In this document: positions 31,017 to 35,826 of the stretch, piece after piece
Layout of the letters: every line of letters starts with the position of its first letter
Numbering within the stretch: the first letter of the stretch is position 1
Assembly (NCBI GenBank): GCA_943358395.1
Contig: CALRGY010000006.1
Span: forward strand, 1 to 48,945
Length of the DNA stretch: 48,945 bases
Direction: 5' to 3'
Origin: Candidatus Uhrbacteria bacterium
GTDB lineage: Bacteria > Patescibacteriota > Patescibacteriia > UBA9934
Translations under genes and position numbers: made by a program
Notes under the pieces: model-generated
What the model was told of the DNA's origin: nothing
Seen by the model: only the letters and a program-made list of their open reading frames with translations
The model's database searches: none

Positions 31017-31048
31017 GAAGGGGTATTTTATTTTTGAGATGTTCCAAT

Positions 31049-33379
31049 ATGAATGAAGAATTTGGATACGAAGTGCCTGGTCCGGTAAAGAAAGCTATAG
31101 ATACAGGGAAACGAAATCCTCAACAATATGAAGGCCCAGCAACAGAAGTTCCGGATTTCCACAAAAATCGGAATCCAAAAATCGTTGCAAAAGCAGCGGA
31201 ATCTCAAGCTACACGAAACGCTGAAAACGTAGCATCAGAAAAGAAGGGCGTTGACGAGGCTTTGAAGATGACGACAGCAAAACGCAGGGCGGCGATCATG
31301 GCGGAAGATGATACGAGCTATACCGTCAAACACGAAAAAAGAACGAAGTCTGACGAATTCTTTCCAGAAAAAATGCGTGCAAAAACAGCATTAGGAACAA
31401 AAGTTGAAGATCCGAAGACCGAAAAAGGATTCGTGCTCATCGATGAGCCAGATGCAACGGAAGTTCCAGACTTCGCTCTCAATCGCAACCCAAAGATCGT
31501 TGCGAAAGCGGAAGAGTCTCAGGCAGCACGAGATGCTGCGGTAAAAGCAGAACAAGAAGCAGAAATTAAGCGAGGAATCGATGAGGCGAAGTTGAGTATT
31601 CAGGAGCGAGAGCATCCCGAAACTGCCAACATGAAGGCAAAGATAGGCACTGTTTCCATGGCGGTAACGTGGAATGCACAACAGGAAGAATATGTGTTCT
31701 CTTTCCCAGGGCTTCCAAAGGGAAATGCCTTTGGTATTGGGAGCAATCCAGACAATGCGCGTGCAATTTTCAAACAAGCCATTGCTCTTGCTTCCGAAAC
31801 AATTACTGGTGCGCCACAAAATCCACTCGGTCCCCCAGACATGATCGGCGCAGTACGCAAAATGGCAGATGCTATGAGCGATGATTACAGTGTGAACGAC
31901 AGACGTGATAATACATCTACCAAAGAAGTTACCGGACCACTTGGCCTTAAAGAATCGCCAGCGTTGCGAGATGAACAGGAAAAGGCTGCAAAAGAATCTG
32001 CAGAAATCTACGATCGAGAAACGATGGTAGAGCAGGGTGCACGAATTCTTCAGGAGAAGTTTTCTGCAATGGATGCGAAGCTTGATACGCAAGGCGCAAG
32101 ACTCGCTGAACGTCAAAAGATCGTCGAGAACAAGCTCGGTGCCTTCCTTGCCGGTGCTGTCGGGCTTGGTGCACGAGCATGGGAGGCAGCGAAGAATACC
32201 TTTAAAGGTGGGGTAGAAGTTACGGCAGGAACGTTCAAGCCAACAAAAAACGGCGGTCTGTATCTTGCTGCCAATGAAATCTTCAACGAAAATGTTCGCG
32301 AAACGTTTGCAAGTCTTCACGATCAAATCGCTGATCCGGTGAATAAAGCGATAGATGAACGCAATGATCGCAAAGGAATAGAAGCCATGAACGACTGGAT
32401 CAGTAAGGACATCCAAGAGCGATATGATGCTGAAAGGCGCATGGAACGCTACGGCACCGAAACGCCAACCATTGCGCAAAAGATGAGTGCATTGAATACG
32501 GATCGGAAGATTGCTAAGGCAGCGAAAACAATCGAGGCACAAGAGCAACGAGAACTTCGTGACGTCGTCGCGGTGCAACTCGCAGACGAATTTGCTGCAC
32601 GCGGTGGAGACAGATTTACTGACGCGGAGAAGAAAGAGATTGGCGCAAAGCTTCTTAGGAATAAAGAGATTGCGGAAACCATTGATAAGGTCGCTGGAGC
32701 AATCTCCCTTCCACAAACCGCAGAAATAATCCGCGCCAACGTTGACTTCGCAAAGCTCTTATCGAAAATTTTCAGCGGAGCAGAGGACGAAGAAGCTCTT
32801 GAAGGAAAAACCCCACAGCAAAGATACCTCACAGCGACACCTCGAGAATGGTTCGTTGCGAATATCGTCGAAGGCACAAAGGGCGGAGCACGCGCGTTTA
32901 AAGACATGCTCGTTGATGTTGGATCGACGAAAATTGGGAAGACGGATTACGTTGCAGACATGGAGGCTGCAGAGGCAAGAGAGGTTGACGGCGTAGCCCC
33001 AGAGCTTTCAACGTGGCGCAAATTATTACCAACGGTATTCAAGATCAAAGACAGGATGGCGCTCCGCAATGCGGAAGTTGCAGAAAATACGCTTACCGTG
33101 AAAGAAAGAGCACGAAATATGATGGACAAGGCATATAATCGTTTCATCATCGAGGTAAACGTCGCACGACTACGGAGTATTGATATTCCAGCAACGCATC
33201 CTCTCTTCCGTGCAATTGAATCCTTTGCCGCGATCGAGGAACTGCCAGATAGCGCAATAGAAATGCTTACCCCTAAAGATGTGGGGTATGAGAAAATTGA
33301 AGATTTCGAGGACGACATCGATCCTGAAGATCTTGAAGACGATGATGGCATCGAAGAACCAGTACGCATCGCTGCTTAA
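31049..33379 (+). CDS. large charged hypothetical protein with an internal repeat
   Basis: 776 aa, highly charged and mostly helical, no membrane segment. Two near-identical blocks occur, ATEVPDFHKNRNPKIVAKA at about 36-54 and ATEVPDFALNRNPKIVAKA at about 138-156, each followed by an E-S-Q-A helix, so an early segment was duplicated. A short globular piece (about 200-245, MAVTWNAQQEEYVFSFPG) is followed by long coiled-coil regions and an acidic tail (EDDIDPEDLEDDDG). No known family recognised. It is followed after 20 nt by a 117-aa gene with a terminator behind it, so the two form one unit. A cytoplasmic structural or scaffolding role is only a guess. Confidence 0.78.
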   Translation: MNEEFGYEVPGPVKKAIDTGKRNPQQYEGPATEVPDFHKNRNPKIVAKAAESQATRNAENVASEKKGVDEALKMTTAKRRAAIMAEDDTSYTVKHEKRTKSDEFFPEKMRAKTALGTKVEDPKTEKGFVLIDEPDATEVPDFALNRNPKIVAKAEESQAARDAAVKAEQEAEIKRGIDEAKLSIQEREHPETANMKAKIGTVSMAVTWNAQQEEYVFSFPGLPKGNAFGIGSNPDNARAIFKQAIALASETITGAPQNPLGPPDMIGAVRKMADAMSDDYSVNDRRDNTSTKEVTGPLGLKESPALRDEQEKAAKESAEIYDRETMVEQGARILQEKFSAMDAKLDTQGARLAERQKIVENKLGAFLAGAVGLGARAWEAAKNTFKGGVEVTAGTFKPTKNGGLYLAANEIFNENVRETFASLHDQIADPVNKAIDERNDRKGIEAMNDWISKDIQERYDAERRMERYGTETPTIAQKMSALNTDRKIAKAAKTIEAQEQRELRDVVAVQLADEFAARGGDRFTDAEKKEIGAKLLRNKEIAETIDKVAGAISLPQTAEIIRANVDFAKLLSKIFSGAEDEEALEGKTPQQRYLTATPREWFVANIVEGTKGGARAFKDMLVDVGSTKIGKTDYVADMEAAEAREVDGVAPELSTWRKLLPTVFKIKDRMALRNAEVAENTLTVKERARNMMDKAYNRFIIEVNVARLRSIDIPATHPLFRAIESFAAIEELPDSAIEMLTPKDVGYEKIEDFEDDIDPEDLEDDDGIEEPVRIAA

Positions 33380-33865: not shown

Positions 33866-35608
33866 CTACACCGGCAACTTGGCAGCATCGACGGCACGGG
33901 CAACAAGATCGGATTGAGGGATGATGAGGGCTTCGTCGCTTCCAAAGACCTTCACTTGAATATCTCCCCCATCGCGTTCCTTCGCCCCCACCACAATCGT
34001 CCATGGCACCTTGTTCATCGCGGCATCGCGGATCTTTTTCCCCACCTTTTCTGGAGCGTCGTCGAGTGCAACGCGAATACCAGCAGATTCAAGATTTGTC
34101 TTCATCGCCTTTGCGGTCTCGATGAACTCATCCGCAACCGTTGCAACCCTCACCTGCTCCGGCGCAAGCCACATCGGGAATGCTCCAGCAAAGTGCTCGA
34201 TCATTACACCGATGAAGCGCTCGAGTGAACCGAGAATTGCGCGGTGAATCATTACCGGTCGCTGCTTTTCATTATCTGCGTCTGTGTACTCAAGCTCGAA
34301 GCGCTCTGGAAGATTGAAGTCGAGCTGAATTGTTGCGAGTTGCCATTCACGACCAATGGCATCGGTGGCGATAAAGTCGATCTTTGGGCCATAAAATGCT
34401 GCTTCACCAACGCCAAGGAAATATTCCTGATTCATGTCAGCAAGCAATTCCTTCAATGTTCCCACAGCTTTTTCCCACACCTCGGCTCCACCAAGATATG
34501 CTTCCGGCTTTTCAGGATCGTTCACCGAAAGACGAGCTTTGAGTGGCATCTGAAATGCCTCATAGAATTTCGTGATGATATTCGCGATAGCTCGCGCCTC
34601 ATCTTTCACCTGGTCGAGCCGACAGAACACGTGAGCGTCGTCCTGTGTGATGGATCGAACACGCGACAATCCCTGCAACTGGCCAGTATTCTCGTCGCGA
34701 TACACCGTTGTTACTTCACTGTAACGAAGCGGAAGATCGCGATAGCTTCTGCCGCGTGATGCAAAGATTTGCGTGTGATGCGGGCAGTTCATCGGTTTCA
34801 AAACGAATGCATCATCGGTTTTTTTGCTCGAAACGTGGAAGATGTCGTCTGCAAATTTATCCCAATGCCCGCTTGTTTTATACAGATCGCTCTTTGCCAT
34901 GTGTGGAATTGTCACCTTGGTGTATCCATACGGCTTCATCAACGCCCACACAAATGCAACAAGCTGTTCGCGTAAGATTGTTCCTCGAGGCGTGAAGAGT
35001 GGAAGACCGGGGCCAACCAGCGGTGAGAATGCGAAGAGATCAAGCTCCACACCAAGCTTTCGATGATCGCGCTTCTTTGCCTCTTCGAGCATAGCAATAT
35101 GCGCATCACGTTCTGCTTTTGTTTCGAAGGCAATTCCGTAAATACGGGTGAGCATGTCGTTCTTTTCATCACCACGCCAATAGGCGCCAGCAAGCTTTGT
35201 GAGCGAGAAACATTCGGGGTCGAGATTCGCGATTCCATCGGCGTGGCCACCACGACACAAGTCGGAATAGGTTCCCGATGTGTAGAGCGTCAACATCTGA
35301 CCGTCGCCAGCAAACTCATCGATGAGTTCTGTTTTGTATTTGTTGTCCGCAAACAGTGATCGCGCTTCGTCGGCGCTCATCTCTTTCCGATCGAAGGCGT
35401 GCCACGATGGCATCAGCTCACGCATCTTTGCTTCGATCTTTGGCAGATCTTCTTCGGAGATTGGCGTAGAAAATGCAAAGTCGTAATAGAACCCATCATC
35501 AATAGCCGGACCAATAGTGCGCTTGGCGTCTGGATACAAATCCAGCACTGCTGCAGCGAGCAAGTGCGCAAGTGAGTGACGAAGATGTTGCAGTTCTTCG
35601 GAGTTCAT
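33866..35608 (-). CDS. thrS: threonyl-tRNA synthetase lacking the TGS domain
   Basis: Charges tRNA(Thr). 580 aa against about 640 for E. coli ThrRS: the N-terminal TGS domain (about 60 aa) is absent and the protein begins directly with the editing domain (LRHSLAHLLAAAV, HxxxH). Editing-domain CRGGHAD, the catalytic zinc ligands Cys in KPMNCPHH, His in DDAHVFC and His in MIHRAILGS, class II motif 2 (LRYSEVTTVYRDEN) and a C-terminal anticodon-binding domain are all present. The start is the only ATG near the editing domain and there is no SD. Transcription is probably controlled by the T-box leader directly upstream. Confidence 0.96.
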   Translation of the reverse strand: MNSEELQHLRHSLAHLLAAAVLDLYPDAKRTIGPAIDDGFYYDFAFSTPISEEDLPKIEAKMRELMPSWHAFDRKEMSADEARSLFADNKYKTELIDEFAGDGQMLTLYTSGTYSDLCRGGHADGIANLDPECFSLTKLAGAYWRGDEKNDMLTRIYGIAFETKAERDAHIAMLEEAKKRDHRKLGVELDLFAFSPLVGPGLPLFTPRGTILREQLVAFVWALMKPYGYTKVTIPHMAKSDLYKTSGHWDKFADDIFHVSSKKTDDAFVLKPMNCPHHTQIFASRGRSYRDLPLRYSEVTTVYRDENTGQLQGLSRVRSITQDDAHVFCRLDQVKDEARAIANIITKFYEAFQMPLKARLSVNDPEKPEAYLGGAEVWEKAVGTLKELLADMNQEYFLGVGEAAFYGPKIDFIATDAIGREWQLATIQLDFNLPERFELEYTDADNEKQRPVMIHRAILGSLERFIGVMIEHFAGAFPMWLAPEQVRVATVADEFIETAKAMKTNLESAGIRVALDDAPEKVGKKIRDAAMNKVPWTIVVGAKERDGGDIQVKVFGSDEALIIPQSDLVARAVDAAKLPV

Positions 35609-35644
35609 AGAAATACGTCGTATAGGTCCAATACGACCTATAGT

Positions 35645-35791
35645 AAAAAATAAAAATACCCGACCAGAGCACAATGCTCACAGTCGGGACCAAGAAAATC
35701 TCGGCGGTTCCACCCGAATTCCCCGAAAATCTTTCGAGGCTCTTTTGAATTGTTCATCGGCTCGCGAGGTGGTAGCTCGGTCACTGTCGAT
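35645..35791 (-). ncRNA. T-box riboswitch leader of thrS, short stem I
   Basis: On the minus strand the roughly 145-nt leader has, in order: a short stem I closed by TTCATCG/CGATGAA (35789-35795 with 35753-35759) that holds GTGACC, with ACC (Thr) at 35779-35781 as the probable specifier; a stem III of CCTCGAAA/TTTCGGGG (35721-35739); the T-box core GGGTGGAACCGCC (35703-35715); and a terminator CCCGAC/GTCGGG (35659-35688) followed by a T-rich run. The TCGGG next to the T-box core can instead pair with TCCCGA, forming the antiterminator. T-boxes sense uncharged tRNA. Stem I is far smaller than in Firmicutes (about 43 nt against about 100). Confidence 0.85.
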
Positions 35792-35797
35792 GAAAAC

Positions 35798-35826
35798 AAT
35801 ATAAAACGAAGCGCGAACAATGGCAA
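35798..35826 (-). promoter_or_regulatory. thrS T-box promoter
   Basis: -35 TTGCCA at 35821-35826, 17-nt spacer, -10 TATATT at 35798-35803. The predicted start, about 35791, is the first base of stem I of the T-box. Confidence 0.8.

Follow-up and report, generated by a model that had tools for sequence, protein, structure and literature searches.

The leader of thrS in the genome of an ultrasmall Candidatus Uhrbacteria (Patescibacteria) bacterium is very probably a transcription-attenuating T-box riboswitch for tRNA-Thr, with a leader reduced to about 150 nt. Comparison and computation established its anatomy, its covariation, its mutually exclusive folds, the match of its specifier and UGGN bulge to the downstream gene and to the tRNAs, and its recurrence. 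The host genome comprises 0.91 Mb in 28 contigs and is 97.6% complete; all coordinates below refer to the window, that is, the whole stretch of 48,945 nucleotides analysed here. The leader occupies 35645-35826 on the minus strand, and thrS itself (33866-35608, minus strand, ATG at 35608) encodes a threonyl-tRNA synthetase of 580 aa that matched TIGR00418 with 645 bits (E=1.1e-193). Since the closest named relative of this thrS (94% identity) belongs to Candidatus Uhrbacteria, the original prediction of a CPR (Patescibacteria) host, made from the sequence alone, was right. Two neighbouring features should also be recorded: a 7-bp hairpin, GTCGTATTGGACCTATACGAC, at 35617-35637, just 5' of the thrS start codon and 3' of the terminator, which could affect thrS translation, and a 781-aa open frame between miaA and thrS (31034-33379, plus strand) without an NCBIfam match.

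On the minus strand, the leader runs from a promoter through Stem I, a short linker, a purine string, Stem III, AA, the 5' strand of antiterminator helix A1 and the T-box bulge to the A2 hairpin, the A1 3' strand, a terminator and a U-rich tail ending at 35645; every element named in the original prediction lay where it had been placed. A promoter scan identified a sigma-70-like promoter, TTGCCA-N17-TATATT (35826-35798), with the -35 hexamer TTGCCA at 35821-35826, the -10 hexamer TATATT at 35798-35803, a 17-nt spacer and 10/12 consensus matches. Shuffled regions yielded a mean of 0.4 promoter-like sites each; the promoter is arranged in the same way in the relative L033. From the position of the -10 hexamer, the transcript is expected to start close to helix P1, with Stem I at or near its extreme 5' end.

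Stem I is 43 nt long (35754-35796) and directly follows the promoter. Its basal helix P1, whose pairs covary in relatives, is formed by UCAUCGAC (35786-35793) and GCCGAUGA (35754-35761), with a mismatch of A35787 opposite C35760. Above it, a K-turn-like element consists of a 3-nt bulge AGU plus GA on the 5' strand (35781-35785) and GA on the 3' strand (35762-35763), both placed by comparison with relatives. Folding and covariation then support the specifier hairpin CCGAG-CUACCAC-CUCG (35765-35780), whose 7-nt apical loop contains the Thr codon ACC (35771-35773), complementary to the tRNA-Thr anticodon GGU and followed by the conserved A35770. The purine string AAGAG (35740-35744) conforms to the RRRxG motif that precedes Stem III in T-boxes (PMC7583486), and Stem III, CCUCGAAAGAUUUUCGGGG (35721-35739) with AA after it, was recovered by both the Rfam match and folding, as had been predicted, so that the RRRxG and AA flanks of Stem III are both in place. 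The antiterminator helices together lie within 35684-35717 and were identified by folding, with covariation in addition for the A1 5' strand and A2: the A1 5' strand UCGGG (35713-35717), the T-box bulge UGGAACC (35706-35712), in which UGGA is complementary to the 3' UCCA (U73) of tRNA-Thr, the A2 hairpin GCCGAGA-UUU-UCUUGGU (35689-35705) and the A1 3' strand CCCGA (35684-35688). The last of these is also part of the 5' arm of an intrinsic terminator hairpin, CCCGACUGUGAGC...GGUCGGG (35659-35688), found by folding and followed by the U-rich tail UAUUUUUAUUUUUU (35645-35658).

Because the CCCGA strand is common to antiterminator and terminator, the two folds are mutually exclusive. In a transcript ending at the A1 3' end, the minimum free energy structure comprised Stem I, Stem III and the antiterminator, whereas the full leader folded at -48.0 kcal/mol with the terminator vs -41.5 kcal/mol with the antiterminator forced. 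The folding of the cut and the full leader thus bears out the predicted competition between the terminator 5' arm and the antiterminator, and sequence comparison supports control of thrS by transcription attenuation. Taken alone, the leader's folding energy was only mildly unusual (z=-1.94).

The Rfam T-box model (RF00230), run as the original prediction had proposed, matched the T-box core. Using cmscan with E-value reporting, the Stem III-to-antiterminator core alone scored 32.4 bits (E=9e-6), and the core match reached E=3.5e-7 in the genome-wide search. The UGGN-ACC bulge lies within the antiterminator in the RF00230 alignment, and the surrounding A1 and A2 helices covary. It should be noted that the scores obtained with this model (32.4 and 37.3 bits) fall far below its 93-bit gathering cut-off, and that cmscan at Rfam gathering thresholds gave no match in the window; since the T-box is detectable only below the cut-off, a lack of Rfam annotation is uninformative here. 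Most of the length of the model is a long Stem I and Stem II, both missing from the window copy. A full-length placement of the match (255 nt) entered the upstream gene and misplaced Stem I and was set aside, and our model of Stem I was taken from the local core match and the alignment of relatives.

Covariance support for the T-box core and Stem I was sought in relatives and found to be strong. In 22 leaders, aligned by fitting to a covariance model, 93.8% of cells were paired and 17/20 pairs had changed on both sides, with a covariation of 0.649 vs 0.263 in shuffled alignments (0/500 shuffles) and at most 0.166 for slid partners. The covariation was located in P1, the specifier hairpin, A1 and A2. 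An alignment of 11 same-family leaders made with MAFFT agreed with this result (13/20 pairs with double changes; covariation 0.543 vs 0.253 shuffled). The G-U pair closing A2, a reported charging sensor, is present in the window and is not conserved among relatives.

The same-family alignment divided Stem I into P1, the 3-nt bulge with GA facing GA, and a helix of 4-5 bp closed by a loop that carries the Thr codon; in every leader of one alignment an A comes directly after this codon. The GA of the K-turn-like element was invariant in both same-family alignments (alignments A1 and A2), and the NNN-GA/GA pattern recurs in relatives. A kink-turn is found at the base of Stem I in nearly all T-boxes (PMC7583486); the bulge and tandem GA are its signature and would presumably fold as an actual K-turn here. 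With 7 nt, the loop CUACCAC in the window is the size of a tRNA anticodon loop and has its codon at the anticodon-equivalent positions, and the apical loops of relatives are slightly smaller or larger. An internal specifier loop was considered first and dropped, as the alignment puts the codon in the apical loop. The apical location of the codon amends the original prediction, which had put ACC in the expected specifier position. The anticipated size of Stem I (about 43 nt) was correct, and sequence comparison supports the claim that the distal elbow contacts are missing, since Stem I immediately after the promoter has no long distal part with a double T-loop. No Stem II, S-turn or IIA/B pseudoknot was visible in the thrS leader of the window, where only 14 nt separate P1 from Stem III; some leaders of its family have an extra hairpin in this place. 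Scanning 138 leaders for the exact P1-bulge-GA-hairpin-GA-P1' arrangement gave 46 matches, a few of them clearly due to chance, compared with 4-12 in shuffled leaders.

We then compared the specifiers and bulges with the tRNAs and the downstream genes. The tRNA-Thr(GGU) of the host genome has an anticodon complementary to ACC and a 3' UCCA complementary to UGGA. In this genome, U73 occurs only in the tRNAs for Thr, Gly and Cys, and the variable base of UGGN fits the discriminators of the four tRNAs concerned (U73 for Thr and Gly, G73 for Asn and Asp). A second T-box of the same genome precedes asnS (G000:C3:41871-42063; the gene matches NF003037); its bulge, UGGC, fits the GCCA end (G73) of tRNA-Asn, and its hairpin CCAAAAG-CAAACAA-CUUUUGG has AAC in the apical loop. 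In the same way, aspS leaders of same-family genomes (L114, L122, L125 and L127) combine GAC with UGGC, and glyS leaders in the class combine GGC with UGGA, so that the specifier is cognate to the gene downstream in each case. According to NCBIfam, the aspS product of L127 is an AspRS of the non-discriminating type. As a separate observation, same-genus leaders of the asnS T-box (L002:1501-1760; G000:C3, minus strand) conserve an element around GUGACAGCG 5' of the specifier hairpin.

To obtain specifiers blindly, hairpins with loops of 6-9 nt were taken from each leader regardless of the gene, and the codon was read 1-2 nt before the 3' stem. Cognate apical codons were found in 70/86 thrS leaders (shuffled mean 10.1, maximum 20), 8/14 glyS leaders (shuffled 2.05), 6/6 asnS leaders (shuffled 1.65) and 4/4 aspS leaders (shuffled 0.3), all of these leaders being related by descent. 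All 100 thrS and glyS leaders had A as the UGGN base, which the thrS-trained model partly forces, and all 10 asnS and aspS leaders had C. Because the thrS-trained model prefers UGGA and ACC and supplied most of the thrS and glyS leaders, the counts for these two genes are not independent of the search; the leaders of asnS and aspS had been retrieved with the Rfam model, and GGC, the codon of glyS, was absent from the training set. No cognate apical codon was detectable in some leaders of the test, in part because of other Stem I forms. The third position of the specifier is usually C; GGA before glyS (L220 and L290) and ACG before thrS (L299) appeared to deviate from this preference.

These data bear on the question of whether the codon is read at all. 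The T-box might sense tRNA 3' ends with a short Stem I that no longer binds the anticodon, specificity being left to UGGN or another factor. UGGA alone already favours the U73 tRNAs for Thr, Gly and Cys, and weak binding would be expected of a short Stem I without Stem II by analogy with ileS (PMC7583486). However, the loop codon tracks the gene across distant genomes (ACC for thrS, GGC for glyS, GAC for aspS and AAC for asnS), and the specifier hairpin has been maintained by compensatory changes, which makes this explanation unlikely. Even less probable is a thrS attenuator that responds to a signal other than tRNA, either by autogenous binding of ThrRS, as at the thrS operator of E. coli, or by leader-peptide stalling. 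E. coli ThrRS binds tRNA mimics in its own leader, the specifier hairpin is sized like a tRNA anticodon loop, and a protein might bind in addition. Nevertheless, the E. coli mimic bears the tRNA-Thr anticodon, whereas the loop in the window bears the codon, complementary to the anticodon; moreover, a UGGN bulge matching discriminator bases is a T-box signature, and between the predicted promoter and P1 there is no room for a leader peptide.

A covariance model (R1) was built from the 11 leaders of the window's family for the structure-aware search over CPR genomes that had been suggested. It picked up independent leaders of thrS in further named genomes of the CPR, including L063 (E=8.8e-15), L093, L060, L077, L058, L070, L038 and others. 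At E<=0.01, the model matched 43/73 genomes of the order. At E<=0.001, it matched 121/334 genomes in the class, 62/287 in the phylum and 0/36 control genomes, which were nearly all Bacteroidetes; two of these controls reached 0.007-0.008. The idea that the leader is a product of chance or decay, a relic T-box that has lost its function, might draw on the low Rfam score and on same-order genomes without a match, but can practically be dismissed in view of the strong compensatory covariation and specifier retention within the family, the intact promoter and terminator, and matches in a fifth to a third of the sampled genomes.

The origin of the short form could be approached through relatives with a long Stem I. 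In many thrS leaders from sister families within the order, Stem I is long, bears T-loop-like repeats in its distal part (GAGACUGGAAGCCGUGGCUGAAAG is one example) and holds the specifier internally, on a strand of the type UACCACUUUUUGAGC. By a pattern count, for which a stricter pattern replaced an earlier, looser one that over-matched, the distal T-loop pair occurred in 13/25 sister leaders and in 1/18 leaders of the window's family, the sole match in the latter lying outside Stem I. The short form thus looks like a truncation, because the sister families keep the long thrS Stem I. Both forms retain the 3' strand [U/C]ACCR...GAGC, and the simplest reading would be that the distal part of Stem I disappeared and the specifier strand was drawn into a hairpin loop. 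In the aspS leader of L114, aligned to RF00230, the distal Stem I is also missing, and Stem II and IIA/B-like elements are retained.

Leaders from other parts of the phylum (L298-L311) again show the K-turn form, and a second arrangement of Stem I is common in the class: P1, GAUUG, a hairpin, variable hairpins, CUAA and P1'. In 33 leaders chosen by the GAUUG/CUAA pattern (alignment A4), both motifs were invariant, the loop of the specifier hairpin had exactly 7 nt around ACC, P1 was 86.7% paired and the specifier hairpin 99.0% paired, and the covariation was 0.968 vs 0.286 shuffled. Examples are L227:1499-1576 and L257:97-183. To our knowledge, the GAUUG...CUAA architecture resembles no described Stem I. 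Given this arrangement and the recurrence of the K-turn form, apical specifiers in anticodon-sized loops are widespread in Patescibacterial T-boxes. It seems reasonably likely that Patescibacteria have a transcriptional T-box class of their own. Such a class would choose tRNA loop to loop, dispense with elbow docking and in many cases with Stem II, comprise at least two architectures (K-turn and GAUUG...CUAA junction), serve thrS, glyS, aspS and asnS, and descend from T-boxes whose distal Stem I was lost.

Several other genes were found behind T-boxes. A GNAT-like or D-aminoacyl-tRNA deacylase gene lies between the T-box and thrS in L235, L242, L243, L277, L291 and L294 and in L265 and L287; the stretch fetched for L265 did not show thrS. 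These genes were rejected as new T-box targets; with thrS following in 7/8 fetched stretches, they are probably the first genes of thrS operons, which suggests GNAT-thrS and dtd-thrS operons under tRNA-Thr control. In L181, L180 and L187 of the same order, the gene behind a near-canonical T-box (69 to 97 bits) is glutamate-cysteine-ligase-like, an unusual T-box target; the GCS2 domain was assigned in L181. T-boxes of canonical appearance (about 84-95 bits) were also observed in L182-L184 and L186, where the next gene encodes a protein of 450-470 aa that has a glycosyl transferase family 3 domain, as assigned in L184. In L185 and L113, the T-box precedes a gene for a protein of 270-285 aa, and the one in L185 had no match in Pfam.

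By analogy with the established T-box mechanism, the thrS leader would bind tRNA, sense its charging and control termination. The anticodon of tRNA-Thr(GGU) would pair with the ACC apical loop, loop to loop, and the 3' UCCA of uncharged tRNA-Thr would pair with UGGA of the T-box bulge, stabilising the antiterminator and allowing polymerase to read through into thrS. Charged tRNA-Thr would be unable to pair with the bulge, so that the terminator would form and thrS would be switched off. Transcriptional T-boxes are thought to need elbow contact and a long Stem I for speed, before polymerase reaches the terminator, and in translational ileS T-boxes a truncated Stem I has little affinity for tRNA unless Stem II is present (PMC7583486). 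The affinity of the window's leader for tRNA is therefore questionable, as no Stem II is visible and the short ileS Stem I needs one. Pairing of two 7-nt anticodon-like loops is unusually stable, and such stability could compensate.

Among known systems, class I T-boxes (RF00230) share with the window copy the UGGN-ACC bulge, the A1/A2 antiterminator, Stem III with RRRxG and AA flanks, the competing intrinsic terminator, a cognate specifier and a K-turn-like base of Stem I, but the window copy differs in its 43-nt Stem I, its apical specifier and its lack of an elbow-binding double T-loop and of Stem II. Like Bacillota glyQS T-boxes, it has no Stem II and would attenuate transcription, but glyQS T-boxes retain a long Stem I for docking on the tRNA elbow, and the Patescibacterial short form has lost this docking part. 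A very short Stem I with a K-turn and an apical specifier is known from the ultrashort translational ileS T-boxes of actinobacteria (N. farcinica and M. tuberculosis; PMC7583486, PMC10651847), and the window copy resembles this class II in carrying its codon apically on a short stem with the NNN-GA/GA pattern. In contrast to class II, the Patescibacterial output is a transcription terminator rather than Shine-Dalgarno control, with the U-tailed terminator well 5' of the start codon (an added translational effect being possible), the specificities are Thr, Gly, Asp and Asn, and the window copy lacks the Stem II S-turn and IIA/B pseudoknot (Stem II-like elements are present in the aspS leader of L114).

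The original prediction had also considered a short, terminating T-box in such a genome to be new, and this holds in part. T-boxes as such are not new to the phylum and could be found by any Rfam run, because T-boxes in four genomes of the same order exceed the gathering cut-off. The apical specifier is itself already known from actinobacterial translational T-boxes (PMC7583486). What looks new is the apical specifier together with a transcription terminator, no Stem II, several synthetase specificities and phylum-wide spread. Our literature search, which reached few subscription papers and did not extend to the records of TBDB, found no description of T-boxes in Patescibacteria/CPR. A short form with a terminator that is spread across a very large and mostly uncultured phylum questions the supposed need for an elbow-docking Stem I and points to a minimal tRNA-sensing switch. 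In addition, an order in which the Stem I of the same gene is long in some members and ultrashort in others offers a route to the origin of ultrashort T-boxes. As far as we know, little is understood about gene regulation in Patescibacteria, and our results predict that these bacteria would sense amino-acid starvation through tRNA-Thr, tRNA-Gly, tRNA-Asp and tRNA-Asn.
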